Part shown: positions 9,249 through 55,506 of the stretch, piece after piece
How positions within the stretch are numbered: position 1 is the first letter of the stretch
Layout: each line of letters opens with the position of its first letter
Assembly (NCBI RefSeq): GCF_023703775.1
Contig: NZ_CP098516.1
Span: 62,001 to 126,000, forward strand
Source: Haloplanus sp. GDY1
GTDB taxonomy: Archaea; Halobacteriota; Halobacteria; Halobacteriales; Haloferacaceae
Length of the DNA: 64,000 nt
Direction of reading: 5' to 3'
Notes under the pieces: generated by a model
What the model was told of the DNA's origin: nothing
Databases searched by the model: none
What the model saw: the letters and a program-made list of their open reading frames with translations, nothing else
Translations under genes and position numbers: made by a program

Positions 9249-9255
9249 AATTGGA

Positions 9256-12800: not shown

Positions 12801-13196
12801 AGTCGCAAGTTCCTCATCACCGTCCAGCAGGTAGTTCGAGAGATTGTCAATATTGGAAGGATTCTCAGCAAGATGGTAAGAGGCAATGAGGTCGTGCGTT
12901 TTCCCACCACCAAATCTCGTGTCGAGACAGAGAATACTCGAAGTATATGATCCTGGGTCGTACTCTGTCGTCGCCAAGAAACGCCCCGTGAGATTGGAGA
13001 GCAACGTACGGAGCCCCTCCGTGGGGTAGGTCATATCATAGAATGAGTCGGGGTCCCGATATACTGGTGCTGCCTTCTCAGGGTTGTGGACGACGGTCGA
13101 AAGTTTCGCAGCGAACTGTTCTTCCTGAAGTGAGCCGTCCAAGACATCGTCCCTGGGCTGACAACTCTCGAACAGAGAGGGGTACCCGCTACTCAT
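9897..13196 (-). CDS. hmaC: DUF499 AAA+-like ATPase of Hma system (HmaC-like)
   Basis: A 1099-residue protein. Walker A is RFGGGKTH (GGGKT at 96-100), and Walker B is QPALILIDEIADYMNK near residue 215. A sensor-like segment VTVVYSIAD follows. The body ends in a Cys-rich zinc region with three or four CxxC/CxxH pairs (CAECG, YYCEEH, CSSCG, CEDC). This is the DUF499 architecture found with DUF1156 methyltransferases in anti-phage loci. It likely acts as the NTP-driven regulator or motor of the complex. The start ATG 13196 overlaps the end of the AbrB-like gene by 8 nt. Confidence 0.85.
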   Translation of the reverse strand: MSSGYPSLFESCQPRDDVLDGSLQEEQFAAKLSTVVHNPEKAAPVYRDPDSFYDMTYPTEGLRTLLSNLTGRFLATTEYDPGSYTSSILCLDTRFGGGKTHDLIASYHLAENPSNIDNLSNYLLDGDEELATDYQNAVAEGLDIATGVFIGTKADSKDARHSDDDPNAPNTRTMWGELAYQLYGLEGYEYLKDYDQDQAAPGEGTLSKLFAQYDQPALILIDEIADYMNKAAGTPVGDKTLADQTLSFVMALLEAAAESEHVTVVYSIADTAFGDQADRVRDGVRDHIEEVNEIGRRQHKTVTPTDENEIGQVLQHRLFSQVPDETAREAAESYFQFYDQGGRQYPQEATDASYVDVLAREYPFHPSLINALTDKIDTIPRFQRTRDALRLLARAVYYLWNHQPDSYDRHWIRIYDLTVADDDPGGGIQTILRERLFDFVDLGPAVTADIYDDDGTAHAQLEDRKWTENGLPPLGTHLTTTVLWHSLAYGEQAAGLTHADLNLAIGHPDLNFDDYDAALSALRGDDMDVACYYLYEEERIRFKQEPNLIRIIDQRIDSTPEASAHSRFENRLLSKEVGSGGFQPVEFPESPADLPDTPDAPKLAVMHPDTAAVEDGGETPPGKVTQLYEQKAAKHDGETETRIYKNYALFLAPDADRKEAAIEEARRLEAIEALLDSPEQKADLSSEQIEELRERSDEAQLMLGELVRNVYRHLYYPDEDGLTHLTISATESNGGTTLVDAVQTTLEGKVIKRDAGARGVHHIKQKLWQQTQDSMSTEALVNQYAKKPGLDYLFSTKPIRETVESLVEDHGYAYWDGESGTVYWTGSTDPGSWPHPEQLADSPDVETSIRDSDVQIGDAFLVYLDIDALVKDHLDEIERPERTIPTCAECGTEVENPEGSEPYYCEEHQSETTCSSCGKEVTSERLLDASGRCEDCQPDESWEASKKMMSASRAFSEVRRDAESKAGTDRTPLLEEVTIQVGGDDPFQAAKFVSQRPGFKAREDAVTVRMEYETRTDDGTYNAEFTGSPSRFRDVIDQPGSFGDARETIQFRFQFDEAEPITDERGDLLAALDNDLDAGNIDVRVEGRGPIRASSEVTI

Positions 13197-15686: not shown

Positions 15687-16715
15687 ATGATCCGCGATGC
15701 TCGCGTTCTCCGCGCCGGGTTCGTCCCTCGAGAAGTTGAGCATCGCGACGCCGAAGTCAACCATCTCTCTAGTGTCCTCGAGCCGATCACGAACGGTGAG
15801 CCTGCCGACACCGCCATCGTCACCGGCCCCAGCGGAACCGGAAAGACATGCATCTCACAATTCGTTACTGAACGGCTGCGAGAAGAGGTTCTCGACGTCG
15901 AGGCCACCTACGTCAATTGTTGGCGCAACTACACTCGGTTCCGTACCCTGTACCAGATTCTCGACGATATCGGCGCGACGATTGACATCCATCGGCAGTC
16001 GACGCCGCACGACGAACTCGTCGACCGCCTCCAACAGCACGACGGCCCACGAACCGTCGTCATCCTCGACGAGGTCGACCAGCTGGAAGATCCCAGCGTC
16101 ATCTACGATCTCCACAGCCTCCCGCAGTTCGCGATCATCTGCATCGCAAACAAGGAAGAGGAGCTGTTCAGCCGCGTCGACGACCGCCTCGTGAGTCGGC
16201 TGCGCTCCAGCGAACACGTGCGGATGAAGCAGTACCACGACAAGCAGCTGTACGACATCCTGCGTGCTCGGGCGAAGTGGGGGCTCGACGAGAACGTCAT
16301 CACCGACGACCAGCTCTACCGGATCGCCGACGCAGCCGCCGGCGACGCCCGCCTCGCAATCGGCATCCTCCGAACGGCCGCTGGCAAGGCCGATCGCGAG
16401 AATCACGAGCGCATCACCGACGACATCCTCCTGAACGCCGCCGAGGATGCCCGTGCTCAGATTAAGCAGAAGAGTCTCGATTCACTCACTCCCCACCAGC
16501 GGGTCGTCTACGACATCGTTCGCGAGCACGGCCCAGTCGGGCCGAGCGAAATCCACGAGCACTACACCGGAGAAGTCGATGACCCACGAACGAAACGGAC
16601 GGTCCGGTCCTACCTTTCGAAGATGGCCCAGTACAATCTCCTCAAGGCCAAGGGCGCGAGCCGGGATCGAGAATACGCGATCATTGAGTCACCGCCTGTT
16701 GCAACAACCACTTAA
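15687..16715 (+). CDS. orc: Orc1/Cdc6-family AAA+ replication initiator (short form)
   Basis: A 342-residue protein. Walker A is VTGPSGTGKTCISQF (about residues 51-59). Walker B is VVILDEVDQLED, the sensor-1 region FAIICIANKEE, and an arginine-rich RLVSRLRSS segment follows. The C-terminal winged helix begins at SLTPHQRVVYDIVREHGPVGPSEIHEHY. It is shorter than chromosomal Orc1 (about 400-550), as many plasmid-borne haloarchaeal Orcs are. It would bind origin DNA or a related site. It is directly followed by the CBASS genes, whose promoter overlaps its stop codon. A decayed copy of its 3' end lies at 21471-21723 on the far side of the CBASS genes. Confidence 0.85.
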   Translation: MIRDARVLRAGFVPREVEHRDAEVNHLSSVLEPITNGEPADTAIVTGPSGTGKTCISQFVTERLREEVLDVEATYVNCWRNYTRFRTLYQILDDIGATIDIHRQSTPHDELVDRLQQHDGPRTVVILDEVDQLEDPSVIYDLHSLPQFAIICIANKEEELFSRVDDRLVSRLRSSEHVRMKQYHDKQLYDILRARAKWGLDENVITDDQLYRIADAAAGDARLAIGILRTAAGKADRENHERITDDILLNAAEDARAQIKQKSLDSLTPHQRVVYDIVREHGPVGPSEIHEHYTGEVDDPRTKRTVRSYLSKMAQYNLLKAKGASRDREYAIIESPPVATTT

Positions 16716-17872: not shown

Positions 17873-20209
17873 ATGCCCCCCTACGAAATTACAGAAGCCG
17901 TCGCAGCCATTGCCGAACAGGATGGGGTCACCGTCCTCAAAGACCCATATCGACACGATAGCAACGGACGGTGGATTGTCAAGATCAGGCTTTCTCCAGA
18001 CGACTTAGAATCCCATCCGCACGTTCCACGCGAGACGGAATGGTATCTCCATCTACGGGATACGTACCCCGCCGGTTCAATTGGGATCTACCCTGCGGAT
18101 CAAGAAGAAAATACCATTACCGCCACATTCCCACACCAGAAGCTGAACGTGGCCGGGAGCGACGATACCCCGTGGCGACGAGGCGATATCTGTGTTGCCC
18201 GCTATGGGCACACCCTCAGTCAAACGGGGGCCACCGGCGAACCCAGCACAAGCCCTGATCGACTCTGTTGGCATATGGACCGAGCATTGCGGTGGTTAAG
18301 GAATGCTGCGAAAGGGGAACTCCGGAAACCAGACGAACCGTTTGAAATCCCGGCCTTCGATACGAACTCGGCTTCGGCTACGACTATCGCATTCAATGAG
18401 ACGCAGGAGTCGTTCTCAGACTGGAGGACAACGTATGGACAATGGGGGACGGTCAATCTCCGCCCATTGCCAACTACTGAAGAAACATACGCGACTGGTA
18501 CGTTCAAAGATAGCGACGATGAAGTCGTCTATCGGCCACAATGGGGCGGATACGTCGATTCGAACCCTGTTGGCTCTATTTCCGGGGCGTGGGCATTGTT
18601 AGAAGAGGTACCGATTGAAACCCCGTGGGAAGCCCCGGAGACGTGGGAACAGTTAGACGTATTTTTCGATGGTACCGAGACTGACCCGTACGAACTACGG
18701 GCGAATATCAAGCCCGTCTTGGACGATGAGCCGGTCAAGGTCCTTCTAATTGGATTCCCTATCCCAGCAACGGTCGATGGCGACCCCGAGATCATCTATT
18801 GGCAACCAATCGAGATACAGGAGTTCAAAGATCCGAATGACCTCTCCGGCGGATTTCGAGATACTGGAAAAGGGCCTGAGATAGCCGAACGGCGGGAAGC
18901 CGGAGAGGAACAGATTCGGTGGCTGGACTCGGACAACTGGTCGCATGAGCAGCTCACCAGACGCGGGCATATGACAGAGTGGTTCCTGGATCGCAACATC
19001 GTGGTCATCGGAGCGGGAGCGCTCGGCAGTATGGTTGCCGAGAACATCGTTCGAGCTGGCTGTCAGCAGCTTACCATCGTCGACAACGACACATATGAGA
19101 TCGGCAACGTGGCTCGCCACACACTAACAATCGATGATGTGGGACGAAACAAGGCGACAGCAATCGCGGACCGGCTCGAATCAATTGCACCGTACGCCCA
19201 GGTACTTGATGTCGACAGTGCCTTTCCGCCGAGCGGTGAGTTGCCGGAGCCAATTAGAGAAGCGGAGGCAGTAATTGACTGTACCGCGTCACGGGGAGTT
19301 CGTCGCGCTCTGGATGCGAATAGATGGAATCACCCGGTCGTGTTTTGCTCCGTTGCGATGGGTCGGCGAGCGAACAGGTTGTTCTGCTTCACAGCTTACT
19401 CACATACCTTCCCGTACAGCGATTATAACGAAGCGTTCGATCCATGGCGGTTACAAGAACAGATCGAATGGGACGAAGATGAGGATGCCATCCCCGAACG
19501 AGTGGGCTGCTGGCACCCAGCATCAGTTATCCAAACGGACCGGGTGATGACGTGGGCAGGGACAGTGACACGGCTTCTGGATCAGGCGACGGCATTGAGC
19601 CTGCGCGAGAATCACTTCACCGTACTCGAGACAAGTAGCGGCGACGAACTGCCGACCATTTCACAGGCCACACCTCCCTTCCAGGACGGAACAATATGGC
19701 GAGCACCGGAATCACCAATCACCGTACAGATTCCGGCCACGTGTCTTGAAGCGATGTATGAGCGCTGCCGAAAAGAACATCCCTGTGAAACGGGCGGTAT
19801 TCTGGCTGGAACCGACCGTCTCGATGGACCAGCACTGGTGGTTAATGCCCGAGACCCACCGCGGGACTCCATTCAACAACCAACTCGATTCCTCCGCGGA
19901 ACCGACAAAGTCGAGGAATGGCTCAAAGACGCCAGGGAGAGCATCGGCATCGACTATCTCGGTGAATGGCACTACCATCCTGGAGCTTCACCCGATATCA
20001 GTCGGGACGATCGGACTGCGATGAATGAAATCGCCAACGATGACGGCTACGACTGCCCCCATCCGCTCCTCTTCATCGTTGGTCAGGACGAAGAAGGTCA
20101 GTTCACGATTAACGCCTATCTATTCCACGATAGTAAGGAATACGAGCAGTTAGAACGGATTGACAATGCCGATGCGGCTACAACTCTCAACGTCGGTGAC
20201 GATACATGA
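17873..20209 (+). CDS. E2-E1-JAB triple fusion (Cap2::Cap3-like) of type II CBASS
   Basis: A 778-residue protein. An E2-like N-terminal domain (about 1-150) has TFPHQKL and a candidate catalytic Cys in DICVARYG (C107). A linker domain follows (150-360). The E1/ThiF domain (375-580) has the nucleotide loop VVIGAGALGSMVAENI (GxGxxG), TIVDNDTYEIGN and a candidate Cys in VGCWHP (C546). A JAB/JAMM isopeptidase domain (615-755) has E639 in CETGGIL and WHYHPGASPDISRDD, giving H700, H702, S710 and D713, the full zinc-peptidase motif. Bacterial type II CBASS usually encodes Cap2 (E2-E1) and Cap3 (JAB) separately; here ligase and protease are one polypeptide. Its stop overlaps the next start (ATGA). 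Confidence 0.88.
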   Translation: MPPYEITEAVAAIAEQDGVTVLKDPYRHDSNGRWIVKIRLSPDDLESHPHVPRETEWYLHLRDTYPAGSIGIYPADQEENTITATFPHQKLNVAGSDDTPWRRGDICVARYGHTLSQTGATGEPSTSPDRLCWHMDRALRWLRNAAKGELRKPDEPFEIPAFDTNSASATTIAFNETQESFSDWRTTYGQWGTVNLRPLPTTEETYATGTFKDSDDEVVYRPQWGGYVDSNPVGSISGAWALLEEVPIETPWEAPETWEQLDVFFDGTETDPYELRANIKPVLDDEPVKVLLIGFPIPATVDGDPEIIYWQPIEIQEFKDPNDLSGGFRDTGKGPEIAERREAGEEQIRWLDSDNWSHEQLTRRGHMTEWFLDRNIVVIGAGALGSMVAENIVRAGCQQLTIVDNDTYEIGNVARHTLTIDDVGRNKATAIADRLESIAPYAQVLDVDSAFPPSGELPEPIREAEAVIDCTASRGVRRALDANRWNHPVVFCSVAMGRRANRLFCFTAYSHTFPYSDYNEAFDPWRLQEQIEWDEDEDAIPERVGCWHPASVIQTDRVMTWAGTVTRLLDQATALSLRENHFTVLETSSGDELPTISQATPPFQDGTIWRAPESPITVQIPATCLEAMYERCRKEHPCETGGILAGTDRLDGPALVVNARDPPRDSIQQPTRFLRGTDKVEEWLKDARESIGIDYLGEWHYHPGASPDISRDDRTAMNEIANDDGYDCPHPLLFIVGQDEEGQFTINAYLFHDSKEYEQLERIDNADAATTLNVGDDT

Positions 20210-22708: not shown

Positions 22709-24076
22709 ATGACCCACATACTCGCCGTATCTGACTGGCGTTCCCAACCTATTGACGATCTCTACACTATTCTCGAAACTGTAGAAATAACTCCAGATCT
22801 ACTACTGTATGCCGGCGACGACCTCTCACGTTTCAAAAACGCCGATAGTGACACGGATCATCTTGCAGAACTGGCTCGTCTCACGAAGCACCAACAATCA
22901 CTCTATGTCCGAGGAAACGACGACCTCCCCCCGCCAACCGGCCCTCAATTCGATGCGGAGTTTACCACCGACCTCCACAGAACACCATACACTCACGAGG
23001 ACCTCGTGTTCATCGGTCAGGAAGGCTCGACCCAGGGTCCTGGTCTCATCACCTATACCGAAGACGAGGTTCAACGACATCTTTCCGAACAACGCACCGC
23101 TTGTGAAGACGGAACCCCTATTCTGGTCACTCACACCCCTCCCTTCGGCATCCTCGATATCGGTAAGCGATTCGGGCAACAACATATCGGATCGAAAGCA
23201 GTCAGGAGCTTCTTAGACGACATCCAGCCACCAGTCACCGTCTGCGGTCATTGCCATCAATTCGGAGGCAGAGCTGAACTCCTCGAATATGGCACGGTGA
23301 TCAATATTGCGTCTCACGACGGATTAGACGACCCAGGAAGATACGCACTCATCTCCATCGACGCCTCGAATGAGTCTATCGAGTACGAGTTCTACGACAC
23401 TCGGAATTTGCTAGGAAGCCGACTGACTGATCTCGTCCAGGTCGGGAGGAACCGAGTGGAACAGTTCAGTGAGTTAGGGATTACAACCCCAGACGAGATT
23501 ACCGAAAAACGGCGTGCTGAGCTCGAAGCCCTCCCTGGAGCCTCGTCATGGCACGTGGACCGGTGGATTGCTCATCGACAGGCTTTCGAAAACGATGAGG
23601 TCGTGATTCTAAACGAGTCTACCTTCGACATCCTTCACGATACGAACCCTCTCCTCTTAGACATAGAAACAGACCTTCAGCAGGACCGGATTTGGCTGGT
23701 CGGCACCTACAGCTACCAGAACGATGCGTACCGACAATTCTTCGATCCGGACGACGAGTCAGCACTTCTTCAGGAGCTGTCTGAGTACCTTGAGGATCAT
23801 GGCTCTGAGCCGATTATCTACCACGGAGGGAACTACTTCGACGAACAGTGTCTACGTCGAAGATTCGAAGAACACGGCATCACTAAGGGGGTCAACCATC
23901 TCAAAATGTCGACTCGAAATGAAGGGGTCAAAGGAATCGCAGTTGCACTACGCTCGCGAGTTCCGTCAAAAAGCCACCCCCCTATTTCGCGTTGTAAGCG
24001 AAGTCGGAACCCCCGGGAGCAGCGAATACGACGAACGACACCCCTATTTCGAGTTGTAACGCGGAAATCCGCATGA
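22709..24076 (+). CDS. Metallophosphoesterase-HhH-RNase H fusion, 3' end lost in ORB repeats
   Basis: A 455-residue open frame. The N-terminal calcineurin-like phosphoesterase (1-230) has SDW, AGDDL, RGNDD (GNHD variant), THTPPFG and CGHCHQFGG (GHxH). A helix-hairpin-helix segment follows (about 255-295, LGITTPDEI...LEALPGASSWHVDRWI). A DEDD-type exonuclease/RNase H-like domain starts at LLLDIETD (about 315) and shows IWLVGTYSY and EPIIYHGGNYFDEQCL. The sequence stops looking native after about residue 405. The remaining roughly 50 residues are Arg-rich and are the translation of ORB-like repeats at 23975 and 24038. The exonuclease domain is therefore truncated, probably by rearrangement at the origin. 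Confidence 0.7.
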   Translation: MTHILAVSDWRSQPIDDLYTILETVEITPDLLLYAGDDLSRFKNADSDTDHLAELARLTKHQQSLYVRGNDDLPPPTGPQFDAEFTTDLHRTPYTHEDLVFIGQEGSTQGPGLITYTEDEVQRHLSEQRTACEDGTPILVTHTPPFGILDIGKRFGQQHIGSKAVRSFLDDIQPPVTVCGHCHQFGGRAELLEYGTVINIASHDGLDDPGRYALISIDASNESIEYEFYDTRNLLGSRLTDLVQVGRNRVEQFSELGITTPDEITEKRRAELEALPGASSWHVDRWIAHRQAFENDEVVILNESTFDILHDTNPLLLDIETDLQQDRIWLVGTYSYQNDAYRQFFDPDDESALLQELSEYLEDHGSEPIIYHGGNYFDEQCLRRRFEEHGITKGVNHLKMSTRNEGVKGIAVALRSRVPSKSHPPISRCKRSRNPREQRIRRTTPLFRVVTRKSA

Positions 24077-24122
24077 ATATCGAAGCCCCCCGTCGGGAGA
24101 CACCCCTGTTTCGAGTTGTAAA
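23975..24122 (-). repeat. Three ORB-like repeats downstream of the second orc gene
   Basis: Copies at 23975-23997, 24038-24060 and 24100-24122, about 62 bp apart, share the core CCCCTATTTCGAGTTGTAAC with one to three changes each. On the minus strand this reads GTTACAACTCGAAATAGGGG, an arm followed by a G-tract, like haloarchaeal origin recognition boxes. All three have the same orientation. The first two lie inside the frayed end of the upstream gene. Confidence 0.7.
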
Positions 24123-24158
24123 TGGTGGTGGGTTGCGTCGGTCTCCACAGCCGAGAAT

Positions 24159-25592
24159 CTAGTTCAGGAACGAGCTCATCTGCGCTTTGGCGATTGATCG
24201 CATCATTTCTTCTTCACGCTCCAGCTCAGTAAATCGGTCATCCTCCAATATTCGTTCCATGATCGCCTCGGGGTCCTCAGCGAGATCGAAGTGCATGTGG
24301 ATTCCTTTCCCCCTGCCTCGACCACGTCGGTCGAACTCGAGGATGCCGTAGGTCGCCTGTTCAGTGACGTGATTGACGAAGGTCTCTCGACCATAGGAGT
24401 CGGCGTCGAGGGAGTCGCAGATGTACTGGTAGAGAGAATAGGAAGGACCAGCCGGAATCCAGTCGACACCTGCATTTGAATAATAGTCCGTTGCAGCAAC
24501 TGCGAAGATGCAGAGCTTTTTTTGAGTCGAAAGCCCACCGATGTGCCGTAGCTTTCTGTCTGAGTCGTATCGCTCCTGGGCAGTTCGAACGTGGGTTTCG
24601 ACAACACGTTCATCACCTTGCTTATCAGCTAACTCTCCGGACCATCGAAGCAAATCGATGGCCTTCCGTGCATCACCGTGCGTTTGAGAGCCGAACGCTG
24701 CCACCAGAGGAACAACATCATCCGCGAGGGCTTCTTGTTTGAACGCATCTTCGCGGTTTCGGAGAATATGTCGAAGCTGCGTTGCGTCGTAATCCTCGAA
24801 GAAAATCTCGTCCGGATTGAACGAGCTGTTCGCTCGACTATTGAGGTCGGACATGAAATCGACGTAGTTGGTTATCGCGGTGACGGAGACGGGTCCGTCA
24901 AAGCGGCCGAGATCACGGGCCCGTGAGAGTTGGTAGAGAAGCGAATTGTATTCCGGTTCTGAGTAAGGGCCATCAAGCATATCCACCTCATCTAAGACAA
25001 AGATCACCCCATCGTAGTGCTCACGCATTATTTCCCACAACCGCTCGAGTTTCTGGTCTGTCGAGACACCGCTCTCGGGGACCCCAGGTTCTGCATCGAT
25101 GTTTAGCGTCGCTTCTTGAATGAGACGATAGACGGCACGACTAGTCGTACCTGGACCCTCGCAGTTAATCGAAAACACACCGAACCGCATTCCCTGAGCC
25201 TCGCTCAGTTCGACGATCTTCTTACAGACTGCATGAATTATCAGGGATTTCCCGGTTCCAGACGGTCCAGTCAGCAACATATCCGGAATGCCGTGGTCCT
25301 GGAGAGCAGGTTTCAGATTTGTGATGACGGTCTTCAACTGCTCATCGCGACCAACGATCCGATCTTCGTCGATTATAGTATCCGGGCGAACCAAATCCTT
25401 GTTCTCGAAGACAGTCTCGACAGATTCGGATTGGAGTTCGTCCATAATCGAAATCCCACTGCCAGAATTATCGAGCGTGGTTTGACTGGTGTCAGACTCG
25501 TCAGAATTGCGGCCCTCAGGACCGTTTGGAACATCCTCTATAGAACCAGACTGTTCCGTCCGATTATCTGTATCCGACTGTCCATCACCCAT
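24159..25592 (-). CDS. orc: Orc1/Cdc6-family replication initiator adjacent to origin
   Basis: A 477-residue protein starting MGDGQSDTDN. It has an acidic low-complexity first 70 residues, then DRIVGRDEQL, Walker A LLTGPSGTGKSLIIH, Walker B GVIFVLDEVDMLDG, sensor-1 VSVTAITNYVDF, and a C-terminal winged helix (STQKKLCIFAVAATDYYS onward). Size and order fit Orc1. ATG 25592 is preferred over the longer frame to 25715 because TTATTTATAC lies about 25 nt upstream, and the longer N-terminus would cover an ORB copy. The gene is bracketed by ORB-like repeats: three behind, four in front, and one inverted. It probably initiates replication from 25.6-26.4 kb. Confidence 0.87.
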   Translation of the reverse strand: MGDGQSDTDNRTEQSGSIEDVPNGPEGRNSDESDTSQTTLDNSGSGISIMDELQSESVETVFENKDLVRPDTIIDEDRIVGRDEQLKTVITNLKPALQDHGIPDMLLTGPSGTGKSLIIHAVCKKIVELSEAQGMRFGVFSINCEGPGTTSRAVYRLIQEATLNIDAEPGVPESGVSTDQKLERLWEIMREHYDGVIFVLDEVDMLDGPYSEPEYNSLLYQLSRARDLGRFDGPVSVTAITNYVDFMSDLNSRANSSFNPDEIFFEDYDATQLRHILRNREDAFKQEALADDVVPLVAAFGSQTHGDARKAIDLLRWSGELADKQGDERVVETHVRTAQERYDSDRKLRHIGGLSTQKKLCIFAVAATDYYSNAGVDWIPAGPSYSLYQYICDSLDADSYGRETFVNHVTEQATYGILEFDRRGRGRGKGIHMHFDLAEDPEAIMERILEDDRFTELEREEEMMRSIAKAQMSSFLN

Positions 25593-25613
25593 ACCACAAT
25601 CCTGTGTAGGCCT

Positions 25614-25624
25614 AGTATAAATAA
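25614..25624 (-). promoter_or_regulatory. TATA box of the second orc gene
   Basis: Minus-strand TTATTTATAC lies about 25-30 nt before ATG 25592. An ORB-like copy begins 11 nt further upstream (25635), so Orc binding there could repress its own promoter. Confidence 0.6.
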
Positions 25625-25634
25625 GTGAAGGCAA

Positions 25635-25808
25635 CCTATTTCGATTTGTAACGTCGAGTATTCGCCCGGTGGAGTAACTCAGTCGGCAATCTCTCCATTC
25701 AAAGTCTCGAACCATTGTCGACGCGGTGCCACTCCCCTATTTCGAGTTGTAACATCTTATCAGAATTCAAATGGAAATCAACGAGACACCCCTATTTCGT
25801 GTTGTAAC
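25635..25808 (-). repeat. Three ORB-like repeats upstream of the second orc gene
   Basis: Copies at 25635-25652 (partial G-tract), 25731-25753 and 25786-25808. They have the same core and orientation as the downstream cluster. The first is next to the orc TATA box. Confidence 0.7.
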
Positions 25809-25979
25809 GGCTTGGGAGCCTCTAACACAGGTTCGGGATGTTCCCCTTTCACATTCGTATCAGATGCAAAGAGTATATGGAAAGTTCCACACAGATGTCG
25901 AGAGCCTGCCCCCCAGACATCTCACACGGCGTACTCGAATGAGATCAAATGACGTCCTCGAGGAGAGAATCCCACACCC

Positions 25980-26350
25980 CCACCCCTTTTTCGAGTTGTA
26001 ACGCGAAACGACGGGAGGGACAACAGAGGTGCCGCAAGAGACGCATCGCCGTGAACCTGGCCGGAGAGGAGTTTAAACCACGATTCTCACCACATTCCCC
26101 GTGCTGATCCACGGCGACCCTACTACTCACGGATACGTAGGGGAACCTACGTATCGTTCGTAGATATTGTCTACTACGGGTGTGGTGCGCTACCGTACTA
26201 CATAAAGATTCTCATATTGTGGTACTATGCCAAATACCGGCTTTAGGACCATTGATTCCTCTGGAATCCCGCTATTCAGGCTGTTCGAGCCTTCTTCGGC
26301 TCTCACCCCCACCCCCATCCTCGTTCTGTTACAACTCGAAAAAGGGGTGG
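25980..26350. other. Probable replication origin core with inverted ORB-like pair
   Basis: An ORB-like copy at 25980-26002 (TTTTTCGAGTTGTAAC with long C-tract) faces an inverted copy at 26328-26350 (GTTACAACTCGAAAAAGGGG). The 325 bp between them hold a perfect palindrome at 26133-26154 and an AT-rich stretch around 26200-26230 (CATAAAGATTCTCATATTG), a possible unwinding element. An Orc gene next to inverted ORBs around an AT-rich segment is the usual haloarchaeal origin layout. Extra long G/C tracts adjoin both inner boxes. Confidence 0.7.
26133..26154. repeat. Perfect palindrome inside the origin
   Basis: Arms ATACGTAGG and CCTACGTAT flank the 4-bp loop GGAA. Related half sites (TTCGTAG, CTACTACG) follow within 30 bp. 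It could bind a second protein, or be an operator for the gene at 26423. Confidence 0.55.
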
Positions 26351-26388
26351 GGGTGTCATCCACGTCTTGTGGGATGTTCGAGCTCGGC

Positions 26389-45995: not shown

Positions 45996-46124
45996 ATGAG
46001 TACCGAAACTTCCAGACTCGAAATATACCGGACCGCTCTCCCGGATGGAAATAGACCGTCCGTTGCACGAATATTGGTGGGGAGTGCATCTACCCCCACC
46101 TGCGAGGAGGCCGACCCGCAATGA
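45996..46124 (+). CDS. Possible small coupled protein before the VirD4-like gene
   Basis: A 42-residue frame starting MSTETSRLEIYRTALPDGNRP. Its stop overlaps the ATG of the VirD4-like gene (ATGA), so it could serve translational coupling. A GTG at 45903 in frame would add 31 residues. No family was recognised. Confidence 0.35.
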   Translation: MSTETSRLEIYRTALPDGNRPSVARILVGSASTPTCEEADPQ

Positions 46125-49100
46125 GTAAGCCAACCGACCAGGCTGAAAACGAGCGCAACACCACGAAGCCCCCCGGCCGGGACACCCCCGCTGGGAGTAT
46201 CTTCGACAAGAAAGGCGTCAACCCCCGCGACGCCTGGGAGCTCAACATGGCCAAGCCGTCGACCGGAGCCGACACGGGGCCGGTGACCGAGACGGGAACA
46301 GACGACGGCGACCGCAGCGACGTCCCGGTCGAGAAATCGGACGGGCCGACTGAGCTGGCAAAGTCTTCGGTCAGCAACGGCGCTGGAGACAGCGAGCGCG
46401 AGGACCGACTCGACCCCTACGACAACGCCACCACGGGCCCCGGAAAGAAACTCGGGGATCCCATCGAAGCCCGGCCGTACATCCATATCTCGCCTGCCCG
46501 CGAGCAGGTCACGCCCGGTAACATCATCGCTGGGCTCTTCGGCCTGTATCGGGCCGGCGTCACCGACACCGGGCGGTTCAACCTCGCCGGTCGCCTCGGC
46601 CTCAAAGATACAAAGAAAACCTTCGAGTTCGTCGTCCACAAGCCGCGAGCTACCAAACGCTTCGACTTCTACCTCTCGGTGACGCCCTATGACGCGACCG
46701 CGTTCAAGACGCTCGCTGCCAACGTCGCCGCGATGTACCCCGAGTCCTTCGAGTTCGAGATCGTCCCGTTCAACCCTGTGGCTGCGTTCGCCAGCGACAA
46801 CGGCAACGCACAGGTTGGCGGCCGACGCATCGCCACCCTCGAAGATATTGGCGACCTCGAACGCCTCAGCGGGTTCGAGGACCCCACCGTGTTCGAGGAC
46901 CACGATATCGGCCGTGGCGACGGTCCCTCCCCTGAAGAAGCCGAACAGCAACTCATCAAGAAAGGCGTCCCGCTCCGTCCCGAGGAAGTCTCCGAAGAAA
47001 AGCGCCCCTCGCTGGTTCGCTGGAAAGGGATCTCCTCGAAGAAGAACGACTGGATGACGCTCCTGCGGCCGTTCAGCGACATCGCGACGGACAACGACGA
47101 CCAGTATCGGTCGCCCCTCAGCGTTCTCCTCGAACAGGCTGTGCACTCCGACGACCCGTTCATGTTCCAGGCCGTGTTCAAGCCCCGGCCAGACTGGACG
47201 GGCGAAGCCGAAGTCCACAAGCGAAACCTCAAAATGGGCAACCACGGGACGTTCAGCGCGTTCAAGAATGAGTTCGCCCGCCAGATGTTCGGCACTTCAG
47301 AACAGGAACGCCGGAACATCCACCGGGGAGATATCTCCGAACAGGTCGGGGGGACTGTGACCGCTGGCGACACCAACAAAATCACCGGATCGCGGATGGC
47401 GCAGATCGACCACAAACAGCCCACGACGACGTTCGACCTCACGCTCCGAGCCGCGTGCAACGAACAGACCATCCAGAGCATCTCGAACGCATTCACCTCG
47501 CTCTCAGGCCCGTACTATGGAATCGAAGGCGAGCTTCTGGGAATCAGCGATACCGAGTTCGCCGCGCTCTGTCACGCCCGACTTGCATCCTCAAGCGGGC
47601 TCTCGGGACGCTTCAGCAAAGGCGACCCCATCCTGTGCGTCTCTCCTGATGAACTCGCGAACTTCGTCGTCGTGCCGCACACGGACGCACTACCCCGTGC
47701 GAGTCGGGGTTCATCCGGCGGGTCACCCGACGCTCGGTCGCCGCTCACCGCGACCGATGAGGATCTCCTCTCGCAGTACAATCACGGGATGCACATCGGT
47801 TACGCTGAGACTGCCGTCGACAACCGCCCCGACATCCCGATCAGCCTGAGCGCCGAACAGCTCACCCATCACGTGATGCGTGCGGCCACGACGGGGGGCG
47901 GGAAGACGACGGCGATGATTAACGATGCCCTCAGTGCCTACGAGTTCTTTGACGGCCCCATCTTCGTCTTCGATAAGAAGGGTGGCTCGATGGCCGAGGA
48001 ATACAAGCGAGCCCACTTCAAGAAATTCGGAAACCTCGACGACGTCGTCCACATCCCAGTCCCGGGACCAAACGACGAGGTCCTCGCGTTCCCCTACTTC
48101 GATATTCGACCGCAGCTTGCTGCCGGCGTCAGTCGGACGGTCGCTGTGCAGGAGAAAATCGACCGCTACAACGAACTGCTCGTGTACGTCCTTGGCCGGG
48201 AGATGGCTGACCAGGCGTTCGTCGCCCAAGAAATTCTCAACAGCCTCATCAAGGCACAGTTCGATCCCGTCTACGGCAAGGACGCCTGGCCAATCAGCGA
48301 CCTCCTCACGGCTGCGATGGATATGCAGAAACTCGGGAGTATGGACGAGCAGACCAAGGCTCAGGGAAAACTCCCGGACGTGAGCGACGATACCCTCCAC
48401 CGGACTCTCCAGCGCCACGTCGACGCCGACCGTCAGCGGTTCATGACCTCCATCGATGCGGTGATGAATCGGATCACCAAACTCGCCGAGCGGTCCTTCA
48501 TCTGGCGGATTCTTAACTTCGTTCCCGACTGGGACGAGGAGAACGGCCACTACGCCCACCAGTCACCGATGTTCGATATACAGGATATCCTCGCGAGCAA
48601 GCGCGTCGTCCTCATCGACACCGGCGACCTCCGCCCCGCCTCGAGCAACCTGTTCACGTTCATGTTACTCGATTACATCTGGTCCGGCGCTCGTCTCCGG
48701 CACCGCCTCGGGAGGACGCCCTCTGTCAGCGAGGGCTACGTAATCAACCTCATCATCGACGAGGCCGCACCCCTTCTACAATCTGAGCTGGTCCGCGAGG
48801 ACATGATTCCCGACGGCCGTGAGTTCGGCCTTGCACTTGAGGTAATCGTGCACTTCGCCGAGCAGGTGAAAGCCGACGCGCTCGACGTCTCCTCCTACAA
48901 GGAGATTCTGCGGAACATCAATACGAAACTCATCGGGAAACTCGCCGTCGACGACGAACTCGTTATGACGCTGTTCCACGAGGGTATCGAAGACGAGGAA
49001 CTCGTCGACCGAATCACGTCGCTCCCGCGTGGGGAATGGGTCGCCCAACTCCCCGACACGGGCTTCATGACCGACATCCCCGAACTCGTCACGCTCCTTC

Positions 49101-50473
49101 CCGTCGGCATTCCCGCCGGGCACAGCGACTCAGACGAGCCCGTGAGCGCCGATTCAGTCTCACCGTATGGCGACACCTTCAGCCAGATCGACGCGAAGAA
49201 GACACGCCAAACGAGGGACGACTACTGTCTCCAGCCGGGAAGCAACACGGACGCGTCCGCCGAACAGCTCTCAGTGTCCATCAAGAAGGGCGGCGATGCT
49301 GGCTCCGCTGATCCGGGCATGGGTACCGCCTCCGTGACCGAGACCGAAGATGGAGCTGATGTGTGGGAGAACAGGAGGAATACGGCAACTCAAGTCGGGA
49401 CGAGCTCGAGGGCGTCAACCCGCTCGAATGGGGATACTCAGACCGGCAATTCGAGTCGGTTCACCCCGCCTGAAGACGACCTCACGGACGACTTTAGTTC
49501 ACGGCGATCCGACACCGCGGGTAATGGCGACGCAGAGGCGGAAACTACGGTTGAAAGTGGCGGCCCGGATTCGGTAACCAATCTGGAAGATCGGGTCAAC
49601 AACTTCCTCTACAGTGGGACCGACCCAACCGTCATGGGCGGAGATGATACCGCCGGTGCACACGTTGGTGAGGGGGGAGAATCGACCCTCGCCGATGGAG
49701 CAGGGTCTGCCACCGCCAGCACCCCGAACGCCGAGGGTGCCGATCGGGGAGATGACCGGGCCGGGGGCGTCGGTTCTGACAAAGGAGAGAATCTGACAGT
49801 TCAGGAGCGACAGTTCCTCGCGGCCATCGTGACGACGGTCAACGGCCGTCACCCCAAGTTCGATATCCTCGAGACGATGGAGCGGATAAATAGTCATTTT
49901 CCTGATGTAGACGTTGAGCGCCTCATTCACCTCGGCTGCCTCGAGAAGGTGACCGAGAATCTCCGCGTCTACTACACCGTCACCGAAGACGGCCAGCGTG
50001 CATGTGGCGCGCGTGTCGCCTACGGTGAAGACCAGGGTGACGTGAACGAGAAGACCTACCACAAGGTGATGGTTGAGGCTCTCGCTCGTACACTCGCAAC
50101 CGACGAGAATAATCACTATTTCGTCAAGAGATATACGCCGATATTCGGAACCGACGTGAAGCCCGATGTCGTCGCGTTCACAGACGAGAAGCCAGCTGTG
50201 GTCGGGGAGGCAATCTGGAACGTCCGTCACGAACACATCGTTAAGCACTACGAGGACTTCGACCGCTTCGACGTTGAGAAGAAAATCTGGGTCGTCCCGA
50301 ATCTCTCAGAAGCAAAGAATATCACACGTGCCCTGCACAACGCGGGACTGATCGACGAAGTGCCCGCCGAACGAAACAGTCGCTCCTACGACGACATTAC
50401 CCGTGCGACCTGGGGCGACGACAGCGACTGGCAATTCGTTGGTGTTGCAAATCTCCTCGATGACCTCCAGTAG
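46121..50473 (+). CDS. Giant VirD4/TraG-like conjugation ATPase with winged-helix and nuclease-like C-terminus
   Basis: A 1450-residue protein. An acidic 110-residue start is followed by a VirB4/HerA-type N-terminal region (YIHISPAREQVTPGNIIAGLFGLYRAGV...KKTFEFVVHKPRATKRFDFYLSVTPYD). The motor has Walker A TTGGGKTTAM (about 588-597), FVFDKKGGSMAEEYKR and Walker B NLIIDEAAPLL (about 876). After a low-complexity linker (about 1020-1220) comes a winged helix (QERQFLAAIVTTVNGRHPKFDILETMERI). The end has KPDVVAFTDEKPAVVGEAIWNVRHEHIVKHYEDF, which has the strand order of a PD-(D/E)xK nuclease but lacks the usual Lys. It probably delivers DNA to the channel; the C-terminal extension may recognise or process the substrate. 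No separate relaxase was identified in the window. Confidence 0.78.
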   Translation: MSKPTDQAENERNTTKPPGRDTPAGSIFDKKGVNPRDAWELNMAKPSTGADTGPVTETGTDDGDRSDVPVEKSDGPTELAKSSVSNGAGDSEREDRLDPYDNATTGPGKKLGDPIEARPYIHISPAREQVTPGNIIAGLFGLYRAGVTDTGRFNLAGRLGLKDTKKTFEFVVHKPRATKRFDFYLSVTPYDATAFKTLAANVAAMYPESFEFEIVPFNPVAAFASDNGNAQVGGRRIATLEDIGDLERLSGFEDPTVFEDHDIGRGDGPSPEEAEQQLIKKGVPLRPEEVSEEKRPSLVRWKGISSKKNDWMTLLRPFSDIATDNDDQYRSPLSVLLEQAVHSDDPFMFQAVFKPRPDWTGEAEVHKRNLKMGNHGTFSAFKNEFARQMFGTSEQERRNIHRGDISEQVGGTVTAGDTNKITGSRMAQIDHKQPTTTFDLTLRAACNEQTIQSISNAFTSLSGPYYGIEGELLGISDTEFAALCHARLASSSGLSGRFSKGDPILCVSPDELANFVVVPHTDALPRASRGSSGGSPDARSPLTATDEDLLSQYNHGMHIGYAETAVDNRPDIPISLSAEQLTHHVMRAATTGGGKTTAMINDALSAYEFFDGPIFVFDKKGGSMAEEYKRAHFKKFGNLDDVVHIPVPGPNDEVLAFPYFDIRPQLAAGVSRTVAVQEKIDRYNELLVYVLGREMADQAFVAQEILNSLIKAQFDPVYGKDAWPISDLLTAAMDMQKLGSMDEQTKAQGKLPDVSDDTLHRTLQRHVDADRQRFMTSIDAVMNRITKLAERSFIWRILNFVPDWDEENGHYAHQSPMFDIQDILASKRVVLIDTGDLRPASSNLFTFMLLDYIWSGARLRHRLGRTPSVSEGYVINLIIDEAAPLLQSELVREDMIPDGREFGLALEVIVHFAEQVKADALDVSSYKEILRNINTKLIGKLAVDDELVMTLFHEGIEDEELVDRITSLPRGEWVAQLPDTGFMTDIPELVTLLPVGIPAGHSDSDEPVSADSVSPYGDTFSQIDAKKTRQTRDDYCLQPGSNTDASAEQLSVSIKKGGDAGSADPGMGTASVTETEDGADVWENRRNTATQVGTSSRASTRSNGDTQTGNSSRFTPPEDDLTDDFSSRRSDTAGNGDAEAETTVESGGPDSVTNLEDRVNNFLYSGTDPTVMGGDDTAGAHVGEGGESTLADGAGSATASTPNAEGADRGDDRAGGVGSDKGENLTVQERQFLAAIVTTVNGRHPKFDILETMERINSHFPDVDVERLIHLGCLEKVTENLRVYYTVTEDGQRACGARVAYGEDQGDVNEKTYHKVMVEALARTLATDENNHYFVKRYTPIFGTDVKPDVVAFTDEKPAVVGEAIWNVRHEHIVKHYEDFDRFDVEKKIWVVPNLSEAKNITRALHNAGLIDEVPAERNSRSYDDITRATWGDDSDWQFVGVANLLDDLQ

Positions 50474-50995
50474 CCATTATTGGGGATGCGCGCAAAGTGT
50501 GCGCACGCCGTGCGCAGGCAGTACGGCGCTCCTCCCTGCAGAATCAAGGTTCAATAAGGCAACCCTCCCGTTACAACTTAGCGCAAAGCCGCAAAACTGC
50601 TTAGAGGTGCTAAAAGACTCTGTAGGTTCTCTATTCGGAACCCGCCATCTCGAGGCCACTTCGGGGGTGCGCAACTCCGCGCAAATTCTGCGCACGCCGC
50701 GCACGGCGGGTAAACGGCTTCTATCCCCAGAATCCGGGTTCCGGGTGGTACTTCGACCGTTACAACTTTGCGCACGTGCGCAGAACGCTTTAGAGGCCTT
50801 AACGAGCAATTTGGTGGCTCCATTCGCCCCCTTCGATGCTACATATCATAGTATTGGGTGGGAGGGGGTCTCCACCGTTGCGCATATCGCGCGCAGGGTA
50901 CCGGTTTCCCCTGAATCCGGGTCGAGATCGAGCACTCGCGTTTCTTTCGCCCGCTGTCGAGTGGCGACGACCCATCCAGACATCACGATGAACTC
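50474..50995 (+). repeat. Phased GCGCA array and three degenerate ~185-bp repeats (candidate origin or oriT)
   Basis: No gene was seen in this 522-bp gap. GCGCA occurs at 50490, 50501, 50512, 50581, 50669, 50679, 50690, 50699, 50770, 50778, 50880 and 50891; within clusters the spacing is 8-11 bp, close to one helical turn. Two long units align over about 150 bp with an offset of 189: GCGCA cluster, AGAATC-GGTTC, CGTTACAACTT (50569, 50758), then GCTTTAGAGG or a close variant. A third, shorter unit starts near 50876. The array sits directly before a primase gene and after the coupling-protein gene. Confidence 0.65.
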
Positions 50996-53173
50996 ATGAC
51001 GAAAATCGACGTAACAGCCGACGCAATCCCCGACAATATCCGCTCCATCGAGAATTGGATTCTCTGGCGCGAAGGAGCGCGCGACGGGAAAGCTACCAAA
51101 ATCCCGACGAAACCATATCGAACCAGCGGTGACATCAACTGTGACGTTACCAACCCCAAACACCGGCGCGACTTCGACACCGCCTGGGACGCCTTCAACG
51201 ACTCCCGGGTAACCGGCGATGGCCTCGGCTTCATCTTCACCGACACCGTTTCCATCACTGGCGTTGACCTCGATAAGTGTCGTGATCCTGATACGGGGGA
51301 TCTCGAAGATTGGGCCCTCGATATCATCGACCGACTCGACTCATACACCGAGATTTCCCCCTCCGGTACGGGTGTACATATCCTCGTCGGGGGAGAACTC
51401 ACCGCCGGCGGCAACCGCCGAGGTCGGGTCGAGATGTATGACACCGACCGTTACTTCACCGTAACCGGCGCGCACCTCAACGGGACACCCACCGAGATTC
51501 GGACCTGTCAGGACGATTTAGACGCCGTCCACCGGAAGTACATCCGTGGTGAGACGACCTCTGATGGGCAGTTGAGTCTCGCAGAGACCGCCGCGACCGA
51601 TACCTCAGACCGCGGAGATAATCGAGGTGGTCGGCGTCCCACCGAAGCCGCCGGCCGGCAGAGTGAGAGCGTCCTCGTCGAACGCTATGGTGATGCCTTC
51701 AGGAACATTCGCGACCCGGCCATTCGGGAAGCCCTTGAGCGGGTTCAGACGAAGTACCTCCCACCCGTGTGCCCCAGTATATTTGACGACCTCGCGGGCC
51801 CCGGTGTCGAACTATCAGATAGCGAGATTCTGACCCGGATGTATGACTCGCGCGGCGGCGACCGCAAACGGCGACTCTACAAGGGCGACTCCTCGATGTG
51901 GGGCTCTCACGACGCCGACTATCCCAGCCAGTCAGAGGCGGATATGGCGCTCGTTCACAACCTCGCCTTCTGGACTGGGAAGGACCCCGACCGGATGGAT
52001 GCGCTCTTTCGCAACTCCGGGTTGATGCGCTCCAAGTGGGATGACCCGCACTACTCGAGTGGCGCGACGTACGGCGCCGTTGCCCTCGCCCGTGCACTCC
52101 TTCGTGTGGACGACTACTACGAACTCCCGAGCGAAGAGGGAGTGGCGTTCTCGAAGGCCGATGGGCCAACGTCACCGTCCACGACTACCGGCCACTCCCC
52201 CAGTGCCCCGGACGCGCCCGCGAGCGACGTGACATCGTCAGCATCCCCTCAGCGCCCCCAGGACGCCGCTGGTGCGACCGGAGCATCTTCCGCGAACGAT
52301 GACGCGTCCTCATCGGTCGAGGCCGCTCCGAGCGCCCCAAGCCCGCTGCACACGGACGACGCTGCGACCACCGCCGAGAGTTCCCCCGATGTCCTTCTTG
52401 ACATCGACGGCGACCACCAGTACGCGAACGGGGACGGGAACGCAGGCGCGAACGAGAACGCGAAAGACCGTGGCGACATCGGCGTCGACGACCCGGGGGC
52501 CGCTGCCGACGCAGTCGCGAACCGCCAAGTCGACGCTCCTAGTGGGGACGTGCTTCCCGAGGGCGTTGAGCCCGCCGCCGCCGACGGGACGGACACCGAT
52601 CCCGACCTCGATGAGAGTACCCGGCGGATGATGGCTGAGTCCGTCACAAGGGCTGGTGGGAAGTGGTCGCGGACCAGCCCCCATCTCGACGATTCCGAGA
52701 AGCACCCCACCGATTGGACTGTCGGCCCCATCGAGGGCCGTACGCCCACTGCGCAGGCGATGAAGGTCGCTCGCGAGGACAACCGTGTTCTCGCTCGTCA
52801 TCAGAGCCGTCTCGAAGAGCGGCTCCGCGATTCCACGGCCGTCGAGGAGGACCGCGACCGCTACAAGTTCACTGCCGAGACCTATCTCAAGGCGATGGAC
52901 GAGCTGATGGGCGAGCGCGAACGCTACCGCCGCCAGCTCAAGCAGGCGGGCCTCCTCTCGAAGGCGGATGCCGACCTCCCCGACGACCCCGTGAAGCGGC
53001 TCAAACAGATTCTCCGCCCGATGGTTCGTCGCGAAGACGTCGCGACGGCCAAAGAGACGCTCACCGGCCTGGACGCCGTCCTCCGCGAATACGAAGAAGC
53101 GAACGAGCAAATCCAGGCCGATGAACGTCAACGCCGGAAACAGCGTGGGATGTTCTCTCGCTTCTTCAGCTAA
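50996..53173 (+). CDS. Primase-polymerase-like replication protein (NrS-1 polymerase family resemblance)
   Basis: A 725-residue protein. The N-terminal prim-pol-like domain has ENWILWREGARDGKATKIPTKPY, LGFIFTDTVSITGVDLDKC (DxD metal site), YTEISPSGTGVHILVGGEL and RVEMYDTDRYFTVTGAHL. A second domain (about 250-370) has SDSEILTRMYDSRGGDRKRRLYKGDSSMWGSHDADYPSQSEADMALVHNLAFWTGKDPDRMDALFRNSGLMRSKW, the helical domain that follows prim-pol in NrS-1-type polymerases. The rest is a low-complexity acidic linker and a basic coiled coil ending in GMFSRFFS. No helicase domain is present. It likely primes plasmid replication or the complementary strand after transfer. Confidence 0.78.
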   Translation: MTKIDVTADAIPDNIRSIENWILWREGARDGKATKIPTKPYRTSGDINCDVTNPKHRRDFDTAWDAFNDSRVTGDGLGFIFTDTVSITGVDLDKCRDPDTGDLEDWALDIIDRLDSYTEISPSGTGVHILVGGELTAGGNRRGRVEMYDTDRYFTVTGAHLNGTPTEIRTCQDDLDAVHRKYIRGETTSDGQLSLAETAATDTSDRGDNRGGRRPTEAAGRQSESVLVERYGDAFRNIRDPAIREALERVQTKYLPPVCPSIFDDLAGPGVELSDSEILTRMYDSRGGDRKRRLYKGDSSMWGSHDADYPSQSEADMALVHNLAFWTGKDPDRMDALFRNSGLMRSKWDDPHYSSGATYGAVALARALLRVDDYYELPSEEGVAFSKADGPTSPSTTTGHSPSAPDAPASDVTSSASPQRPQDAAGATGASSANDDASSSVEAAPSAPSPLHTDDAATTAESSPDVLLDIDGDHQYANGDGNAGANENAKDRGDIGVDDPGAAADAVANRQVDAPSGDVLPEGVEPAAADGTDTDPDLDESTRRMMAESVTRAGGKWSRTSPHLDDSEKHPTDWTVGPIEGRTPTAQAMKVAREDNRVLARHQSRLEERLRDSTAVEEDRDRYKFTAETYLKAMDELMGERERYRRQLKQAGLLSKADADLPDDPVKRLKQILRPMVRREDVATAKETLTGLDAVLREYEEANEQIQADERQRRKQRGMFSRFFS

Positions 53174-53602: not shown

Positions 53603-53916
53603 CGACGTCCGAGAGCGAGCCCTTCGACCATCCGCGGTTTCCACTTTCCTCCCTTCCGACGTGGGTATTGGCCCCCAAAGGGGGGTAGGGGAAGTGAGAG
53701 AGGGCACGACGATGTCCGTCCTCTCGATATCCGACCTCACGAGCGAATCGGTGCGAGCGATGCCGATCCGTTGGCACTCCGCTGACGGCGACGGCGGTTG
53801 TCCTGCTCGCGTCTCCCGAAAGTATTGGCCCCCAAAGGGGGGTGAGGGAGAGCGGGTGGGGCGAGGCGCGTCCTCGTTCTGTCCTGACTCGTGAGAATCC
53901 CCCCAGAGAGACTACT
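53603..53916 (+). promoter_or_regulatory. Gap with two CCCCAAAGGGG elements; no clear gene
   Basis: Copies 2 and 3 of the element are at 53666-53690 and 53823-53850. A short frame from ATG 53712 (MSVLSISDLTSESVRAMPIRW) runs to 53894 through copy 3, but its second half is only the translated element plus Arg/Gly-rich sequence. I leave it as doubtful. Confidence 0.45.
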
Positions 53917-55506
53917 ATGAGTGCAAACTCCAACCTCAGCGTGGAGCAGCGTGCGGCAGATATCAGCGGCAAGTTCGGCGGCATGGGCGTAGATGTGCCC
54001 GCGTCGACCGTCCAGGAGCGAATCGTGGCCATGCAGGAGTTCAGCGTCCCCCTCGAGGAGGCGACCACGACGACGGTTCGCAACCTCGCAGCGGAGTACG
54101 GCCTCGATGATGGCGATCTGTCCGATGACATCTCGGCTCTCGCCGGCTTCGGTGGGAACGCGAGCGGATCGCACGCCTTCGAGCGCGTCATGCTCGGCGA
54201 CATCGCGGACCTCGGCCCCGAGGAATGGGTGGACGTCCGCGCACAGGTCGTCGACCTCTGGGAGCCCAGGCACGACTCCATGCGACAGGTCGGCCTCATC
54301 GGTGATGAGACGGCGCAGATGAAGTTCGTCGTCTGGCAGAAGAACACCGAGAGCCTGCCCACGCTCGAAGCGGGCGTCACCTACGACATCGCCTCGGCGA
54401 TCACGAACGAGTACGAGGGCAAGTACTCCATCTCGCTCAACAAGGCCAGCGAGGTCACCGAGTCCGACGCCGAAGACGTCGTCGAGCCCACCGACGGGAA
54501 GATGCGTGCGACGGGCACGCTCGTTGCGCTCGAAGACGGCAGTGGCCTGATCAAGCGCTGCCCACACGAGGACTGCACGCGCGTCGTCCAGAACGGCCGG
54601 TGCTCCGAGCACGGCGAGGTTGACGGCGTGTTCGACCTTCGACTCAAGGCCATCCTCGACGACGGTGAGCGCGCTGTCCGGGCGCTGTTCAACGCCGAGA
54701 TGACCGAAGCCGTCAGCGGCATCTCGCTCGAGGCGGCGAAGGAACAGGCAGCAGACGCTCTCGACGCAAGCGTCGTCGGTGCGGAACTCCGTGCCTCTCT
54801 CATCGGGAAGACCTTCGACGTCCGCGGCCCGGTCGTCGGCGAGTACTTCCTCGTGGATGAAGCGGTCGAGACGGGCTACTCGGCGGACAATCCTGGCCTC
54901 AGTGACCCGGCTATCGCCCCGGCGGTCACGCAGCGCCAGCCTGCCAAGCGCCTGTTCGCGGAGGAACTCACCCAGGCGACCCACTCGTTCACCCGTCCCG
55001 AGGACGAGGGCGATGACCGCGCGCCGAAGTTCACGCTCCTGCCGAGTGGCGAAGCCGCCAATCGCGTGTTCGTCGTCGGGACGCTCATCGAGACGGCAGA
55101 TGTCGGAAGTGACGCCGAGTTCTGGAAGGGGCGCGTGATGGCTGCTGGTGCGGCCGTGAACCTCTACGCCGGGCAGTATCAGGCTGAGGCGCTGGACGTG
55201 CTCCGGTCGGCCGAGACGCCGTCGTACGTCGCGGTGGTCGGGAAGATCCACCACTACGAGACGGAGTACGGCGTGCAGGTGTCCATCCAACCCGAGTCCA
55301 TCACAGTCGTCGATCGCGACGCCCGCGACTCGTGGGTGGCCGAAACCATCGACGCGACCCAGAAGCGCCTCGGTGCGCTCGCCAGCGGCGACTCCGAGGC
55401 GACCGACGCTGTCCAGTCGGTCTACCAGTCGGATGTCTCCGACATCGAAGCGGTCGTCGACGCGGCCATCAAGGACATCGCGCCCGAACCGGCTCCCGCC
55501 CAGTAA
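53917..55506 (+). CDS. RPA::RPAP fusion, single-chain ssDNA-binding protein
   Basis: A 529-residue protein starting MSANSNLSVEQRAADISG. The first 340 residues match the RPA at 28441-29523: OB fold VDVRAQVVDLWEPRHDSMRQVGLIGDETAQMKFVVW, zinc site CPHEDCTRVVQNGRCSEHG (about 214-232) and FDLRLKAILDDGERAVRALF. The rest matches the RPA-associated protein at 27641-28435: AKRLFAEELTQATHSF, FTLLPSGEAANRVFVVGTLIETADVG, AAVNLYAGQYQAEALD. Haloarchaea normally encode the two as neighbouring genes; here they are one frame with no internal stop. The element at 53823 lies 67 bp upstream. Confidence 0.88.
   Translation: MSANSNLSVEQRAADISGKFGGMGVDVPASTVQERIVAMQEFSVPLEEATTTTVRNLAAEYGLDDGDLSDDISALAGFGGNASGSHAFERVMLGDIADLGPEEWVDVRAQVVDLWEPRHDSMRQVGLIGDETAQMKFVVWQKNTESLPTLEAGVTYDIASAITNEYEGKYSISLNKASEVTESDAEDVVEPTDGKMRATGTLVALEDGSGLIKRCPHEDCTRVVQNGRCSEHGEVDGVFDLRLKAILDDGERAVRALFNAEMTEAVSGISLEAAKEQAADALDASVVGAELRASLIGKTFDVRGPVVGEYFLVDEAVETGYSADNPGLSDPAIAPAVTQRQPAKRLFAEELTQATHSFTRPEDEGDDRAPKFTLLPSGEAANRVFVVGTLIETADVGSDAEFWKGRVMAAGAAVNLYAGQYQAEALDVLRSAETPSYVAVVGKIHHYETEYGVQVSIQPESITVVDRDARDSWVAETIDATQKRLGALASGDSEATDAVQSVYQSDVSDIEAVVDAAIKDIAPEPAPAQ

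Follow-up and report, generated by a model that had tools for sequence, protein, structure and literature searches.

The window, the whole 64-kb stretch of DNA analyzed here, carries a 522-bp segment (50474–50995) between two genes on the + strand. Upstream lies a 1,450-residue ATPase (46121–50473, +), which we describe as a transfer ATPase on weak matches to NCBIfam TrbC_conju (E = 0.002) and CedB (E = 0.03); its overall resemblance is weakly TrbC/CedB/HerA-like, and its tblastn relatives are annotated as ATP-binding, VirB4, or DUF87 proteins. Downstream lies a 725-residue NrS-1-like primase-polymerase (50996–53173, +; PF22763, E = 7e-26) that combines a prim-pol with an HBD domain, matches the NrS-1 primase 7rr4 by phmmer (E = 1e-30), and has primases as its PHROG match. 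The first-pass annotation had named coupling-protein and primase genes as the flanks; a transfer ATPase and a primase are confirmed there, the latter specified by profile and phmmer matches as an NrS-1-like prim-pol. An RPA- or single-stranded-DNA-binding-like protein is encoded 3′ of the primase (53842–55506, +; NCBIfam PRK07217, E = 1e-90, which is under that model's curated cut-off), and further nearby genes are VirB4/HerA-like and VirB2-like.

Several other features of the window are recorded here in their own right. In the ATPase C terminus (49874–50470, +), a wHTH-like part precedes conserved D...E residues that recall a PD-(D/E)xK nuclease core, a candidate with a low-confidence AlphaFold model (pLDDT 53) and no PDB profile match. 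A cluster at 2385–13196 (−) encodes SNF2/PLD helicase, DUF1156 methylase-like, DUF7680, and DUF499 proteins and resembles a defence-type island. A single protein at 17873–20209 (+) joins E2-like, ThiF (E1-like), and JAB domains, forming a prokaryotic ubiquitin-like conjugation module.

Repeat architecture and its conservation

The segment is exceptionally rich in GCGCA. Our recount reproduced the 12 + strand copies previously reported (starts at 50490, 50501, 50512, 50581, 50669, 50679, 50690, 50699, 50770, 50778, 50880, and 50891), and a further eight lie on the − strand. These 20 copies compare with at most five on both strands of any other 522-bp stretch of the window; across 5,000 Markov-1 shuffles of the segment, the + strand mean was 1.4 and 12 was never reached. 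Three clusters stand out on the + strand: three copies with TGCGCA palindromes at 50487–50516, spaced exactly 11 bp apart as had been stated; four copies at 50668–50703; and a degenerate cluster at 50879–50897. The helical phasing ascribed to the array is real but modest, with a best period of ~10.0 bp (R = 0.80; P ~0.002 after a period scan of 9.8–11.2 bp).

The array had also been described as three degenerate repeats of about 185 bp. Modules do start 189 and 190 bp apart, but the full motif set occurs in two of them rather than three: GTTACAACTT and CTT(T)AGAGG are present only at 50568–50607 and 50757–50796, whereas the third module (from 50879) is degenerate and retains only its GCGCA cluster and CCCCTGAATCCGGGT. 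The two complete sites constitute a pair of 40-bp repeats. Copy A (50568–50607, +) reads CCGTTACAACTTAGCGCA...CTTAGAGG; copy B (50757–50796, +) begins 189 bp later, equal to 18 turns of 10.5 bp, and includes the 14-bp palindrome TGCGCACGTGCGCA. Farther downstream, alignments delimit an invariant core, CATAGTATTGG followed by a G run (50847–50857, +), which reads CATAGTGTTGG in relatives with 528- and 531-bp segments. A short inverted repeat, TCGCC/GGCGA (50947–50967, +), lies 29–49 nt 5′ of the primase ATG and is weak alone; the 531-bp class has ACGCC/GGCGT at the equivalent position. A structured RNA was considered for the segment and rejected (no Rfam match up to E = 1; fold z-score −1.97; little support for an RNAalifold consensus).

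The array is conserved at the DNA level. By blastn, eight plasmids from eight genera align over 800/801 bp in one piece at 65–82% identity, and the nine-sequence alignment has only one 1-bp gap over its 601 columns. Plasmids from many genera keep the segment at exactly 522 bp even where identity falls to ~55–65%; alignments are gapless at ~55–80% identity, with only two 1-bp deletions seen in this class. Conservation of the phasing in relatives, named beforehand as a check on the array, was thereby observed, in both the 522-bp length and the 189-bp repeat spacing. The variable 5′ part of the 40-bp repeats reads GTTACAA, GTCGGGA, or GTCAGCA, and copies A and B covary, matching each other in each of the nine aligned plasmids (permutation P = 0.0014 over the full 40 bp). 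One genome (G401) carries GTTACAA in both copies, yet in other respects it looks like Salinirubellus, both by eye and in its distance (76 differences/522). Concerted change of this kind would be expected if one shared factor bound both copies.

In more distant relatives the segment measures 521, 528, 531, 248, 250, 268, or 394 bp. GCGCA density is 7.5–38 per kb in every length class except the 394-bp class, against 0.3–2.2 in the flanks, an enrichment that is not significant in each class singly. GCGCA is absent from the 394-bp class, and the DNA element is therefore not uniform. The genome that carries the window also has a second ATPase/open-frame/primase system of the 394-bp class (locus L086, contig C2 near 43–46 kb). 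In viral collections, the primase patterns gave no matches, and the core pattern matched 110 stretches, chance matches being expected of so short a pattern.

An open frame joining the ATPase to the primase

The segment had been taken for an untranslated gap, a description that our analysis does not bear out. A 179-codon open frame (50460–50999, +), hereafter the bridge frame, spans it and overlaps both neighbors: its ATG sits inside the terminal codons of the ATPase, overlapping the ATPase end by 14 nt, and its TGA overlaps the primase ATG (ATGA). The frame is stop-free in 27 of 27 homologous loci from seven length classes (248, 250, 268, 394, 521/522, 528, and 531 bp), a set that includes some near-identical loci and leaves out one decaying copy (L026). 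Across these loci it starts with ATG or GTG at −14, −17, −4, or −1 nt relative to the ATPase end and stops −15 to +14 nt from the primase ATG; at both junctions, stop and start overlap or lie within ~20 nt of each other, the arrangement expected for translational coupling. The bridge start codon persists across changes of the ATPase residue that shares it (Asp, His, Asn, or Arg), encoded by GAT, CAT, or AAT (giving ATG) or CGT (giving GTG) before G. In L026, from Haloplanus sp. GX21, the bridge frame stops 33 nt short, as might be expected of a decaying copy; the annotation there splits the ATPase into pieces, and the primase is truncated, with an IS6 transposase at its truncated end.

Openness of the frame is maintained against substitution. 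In the nine-sequence alignment, the three + frames hold 16, 19, and 1 distinct stop positions. When 887 within-class substitutions were placed on minimum spanning trees, 10.7 stop gains were expected in the bridge frame and none was observed (P = 2e-5), whereas the two off frames combined gave 39.5 against 35.0 expected. Dinucleotide shuffles of the seven mutually dissimilar classes gave a Fisher P of 4e-7, or ~1e-4 when each class is charged three frames. Among 28 other same-strand intergenic stretches, eight (mostly short) likewise have a stop-free + frame; because open intergenic frames are thus not rare, the case is built on the cross-class pattern together with the stop-gain test, not on any single locus.

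These results bear directly on the reading of the segment as a pure cis element, an oriT or replication origin in which the open frame arose by chance. Repeats, phasing, and conserved length all agree with that reading, as does the frequency of long stop-free stretches in GC-rich DNA. It does not account, however, for the missing stop gains in one frame while the off frames behave as expected, nor for the recurrence of the frame in seven length classes with overlaps of both genes at start and stop, and we consider it distinctly improbable.

Selection on a protein product was not detectable. The dN/dS of the bridge frame is 0.83 (0.70–1.00), compared with 0.85 and 0.80 in the off frames and 0.22 and 0.20 in the flanking genes; other length classes are similar, save for 0.55 in one small group. 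GC3 periodicity and bias were looked for in the segment frames and are absent, and codon log-odds for host-type usage are negative in all of them. The bridge peptide has a pI of ~10, as would a product of any frame of this DNA (primase pI ~4.6); AlphaFold predicts no fold for it from seven sequences (pLDDT 43, pTM 0.17), and the length classes show no similarity to one another. The two 1-nt deletions noted above, in the separate lineages of Haloglomus halophilum and Haloplanus rubicundus, alter the C-terminal part of the frame and leave it open to the primase. From a dN/dS matching the off frames, the lack of codon bias, and the frameshifted C termini, we conclude that selection acts on the openness and end points of the frame and not detectably on its amino acids.

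A conventional but very rapidly evolving gene encoding a small basic protein (e.g., DNA-binding or disordered), with the repeats as coding-sequence repeats, would explain the conserved start, stop, and open frame, a 189-bp repeat divisible by three, and a few recurring residues such as QN.LE.L and HS[IV]G. Those residues, however, fall on DNA motifs with rare codons such as TTA, and the basic pI is expected from any frame. Together with off-frame-like dN/dS, lack of haloarchaeal codon bias, frameshifted C termini in two lineages, no predicted fold, and length classes that share no similarity, this makes such a gene unlikely, although it deserves some weight. A +1 frameshift extension of the ATPase, in place of a re-initiated frame, is highly improbable: most classes do have the frame at +1 to the ATPase and open 5′ of the ATPase stop, but the 268- and 394-bp classes have it at +2, every locus has a start codon overlapping the ATPase end, and an extension of the ATPase would have to go without amino-acid constraint.

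Candidate roles of the DNA element

The first-pass annotation proposed that the array, with its adjoining prim-pol gene, forms a second, Orc-independent replication start. The distribution of origin features does not support this. An Orc1/Cdc6 gene is present in every plasmid or genome searched; in the window it lies at 24159–25715 (−; Pfam), flanked on either side by ORB-type repeats GTTACAACTCGAAA..GGGG and located at a GC-skew extreme. Among seven plasmids, the skew extreme falls within ~1.6 kb of orc in three and never at the segment. The Orc1/Cdc6 region, 26 kb from the segment, is likely the replication origin, and because ORB repeats surround orc and the skew extreme falls there, the segment is probably not one. 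Firing of a second origin by the adjacent prim-pol would be in keeping with the iteron-like repeats beside its gene and with the de novo start of synthesis described for NrS-1-type polymerases (PMC7102993). Set against the ubiquity of Orc1/Cdc6 on the plasmids searched, the signals at orc, and a gene neighborhood of transfer type, we regard such an origin as very unlikely.

Two further observations concern the Orc region. The ORB repeats around orc (23975–26356) contain GTTACAACT, as do the segment repeats, and a second, diverged Cdc6-like AAA protein is encoded at 15687–16715 (+). We considered the segment repeats as Orc/ORB boxes on account of this shared 9-mer and rejected that assignment, since the link fails in other plasmids: in Salinigranum, GTTACAACT sites near orc go with a different segment motif, and in Halarchaeum the segment motif occurs with no GTTACAACT sites near orc.

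Gene content points elsewhere. The neighboring ATPase, prim-pol, RPA-like, VirB4/HerA-like, and VirB2-like genes suggest a DNA-transfer context, and the repeats and conserved core stand beside transfer genes, as they would at an oriT. A relaxase gene, expected next to an oriT, was not found on the plasmids searched for the two families PF03432 and PF25227, and PLSDB types all eight of the blastn matches as non-mobilizable; an archaeal relaxase of another kind on these plasmids is possible. With Orc1 and its origin boxes at the plasmid's GC-skew extreme, 26 kb away, a transfer origin is likelier than a replication origin. From the ATPase, prim-pol, and RPA neighbors, we infer that the most likely use of the element is as a transfer origin or transfer-linked priming site, an assignment that is tentative.

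The segment could instead serve as a promoter/operator of the primase–RPA genes, autoregulated by a repeat-binding protein. The invariant AT-rich core CATAGTATTGG ~140 nt upstream of the primase would suit such a role, as would a GTTTGTTTCG motif and the short inverted repeat ~30–55 nt upstream. An operator would leave unexplained the open frame and the start codon within the ATPase, however, and a fixed 522 bp is long for a haloarchaeal operator; we judge this reading unlikely. Taken as a whole, the first-pass observation is partly supported: its repeats are right, its gap is wrong, its replication origin is unsupported, and its oriT or operator is, from sequence, possible.

A proposed translational bridge

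Our model starts from properties computed here, namely the repeats, constant length, open frame, start and stop positions, stop avoidance, and lack of amino-acid selection. The reading we lean toward is that a cis-acting repeat element is overprinted by a translational bridge taking ribosomes from the ATPase to the primase. In the DNA layer, the phased GCGCA/TGCGCA sites, the two 40-bp repeats 18 helical turns apart, and the invariant core would probably be bound by a plasmid-specific protein. In the translation layer, ribosomes ending the ATPase would re-initiate on the bridge start, translate the segment, and re-initiate on the primase, with the bridge peptide as a by-product. Unbroken translation would allow termination-reinitiation at the primase start and shield the mRNA from polarity. 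We infer ribosome use of the frame, coupling as its purpose, and protein binding by the repeats from these sequence properties.

The model offers a reason for each layer. In Haloferax volcanii, coupling needs overlaps or very short distances, reinitiation falling steeply with distance and being abolished by 22 nt (PMC10666635), and a review holds that untranslated RNA probably causes polarity in archaea via the FttA termination factor (PMC12548453). An untranslated 250–530 nt between ATPase and primase would break coupling, which a frame overlapping both genes would repair. The stretch itself would be best explained by a DNA site needing room for phased palindromes, two repeats on one helix face, and an invariant core. 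The length of the 522-bp class is held tighter than a mere bridge requires, so DNA geometry must contribute. Some details fit the bridge less well: overlaps of 14–17 nt lie outside the commonest −4/−1 nt, spacings of +10 or +15 nt at the primase would couple only partly, and a T-rich motif ~55 nt 5′ of the primase could act as an independent promoter. A fuller version, in which widespread haloarchaeal conjugative-type plasmids carry an intra-operon transfer origin overprinted by a frame selected only for openness and crossed by ribosomes on their way from ATPase to primase, is possible but doubtful.

If correct, the model would supply a clear example from nature, 80–184 codons long, in which selection maintains translation but does not act on the product, and would mean that gene finders can miss functional frames or label them empty gaps. 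Translational coupling and polarity protection in archaeal operons would become directly testable, and haloarchaeal conjugative-type plasmids would gain a defined candidate site for the start of DNA transfer.

Known systems share individual elements with the locus. In the literature searched, we found no long amino-acid-neutral frame over a repeat array between two transfer genes in seven length classes. The NrS-1 phage primase-polymerase has the same prim-pol and HBD domains as the adjacent gene product, which here is plasmid-borne in haloarchaea and has genes for a transfer ATPase and an RPA-like protein as neighbors. Iteron-type origins and oriT regions share phased repeats, palindromes, conserved spacing, and replication or transfer gene neighbors with the segment; unlike them, the segment is a candidate cis site, with an Orc1 origin elsewhere on the plasmid and two relaxase families not found. 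The tap/repA leader frame of the IncFII plasmid R1 and repY/repZ of IncI1 are translated to permit translation of the next, replication gene, and resemble the proposed bridge as plasmid frames translated for the next gene and not for a product. Those systems are bacterial, short (tap ~24 codons), and based on RNA structure, and do not lie over DNA repeats between transfer genes. Closest in organism group is termination-reinitiation in Haloferax (Huber et al. 2019, 2023), where, as at both junctions of the segment, stop and start overlap or lie a few nucleotides apart and very short distances are required (PMC6728339, PMC10666635). Haloferax coupling joins two real genes directly, whereas the segment would interpose a third, amino-acid-unconstrained frame of 80–184 codons. 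Termination-reinitiation in haloarchaea is already known, and the feature without a counterpart in the literature searched is the long neutral bridge frame over repeats.
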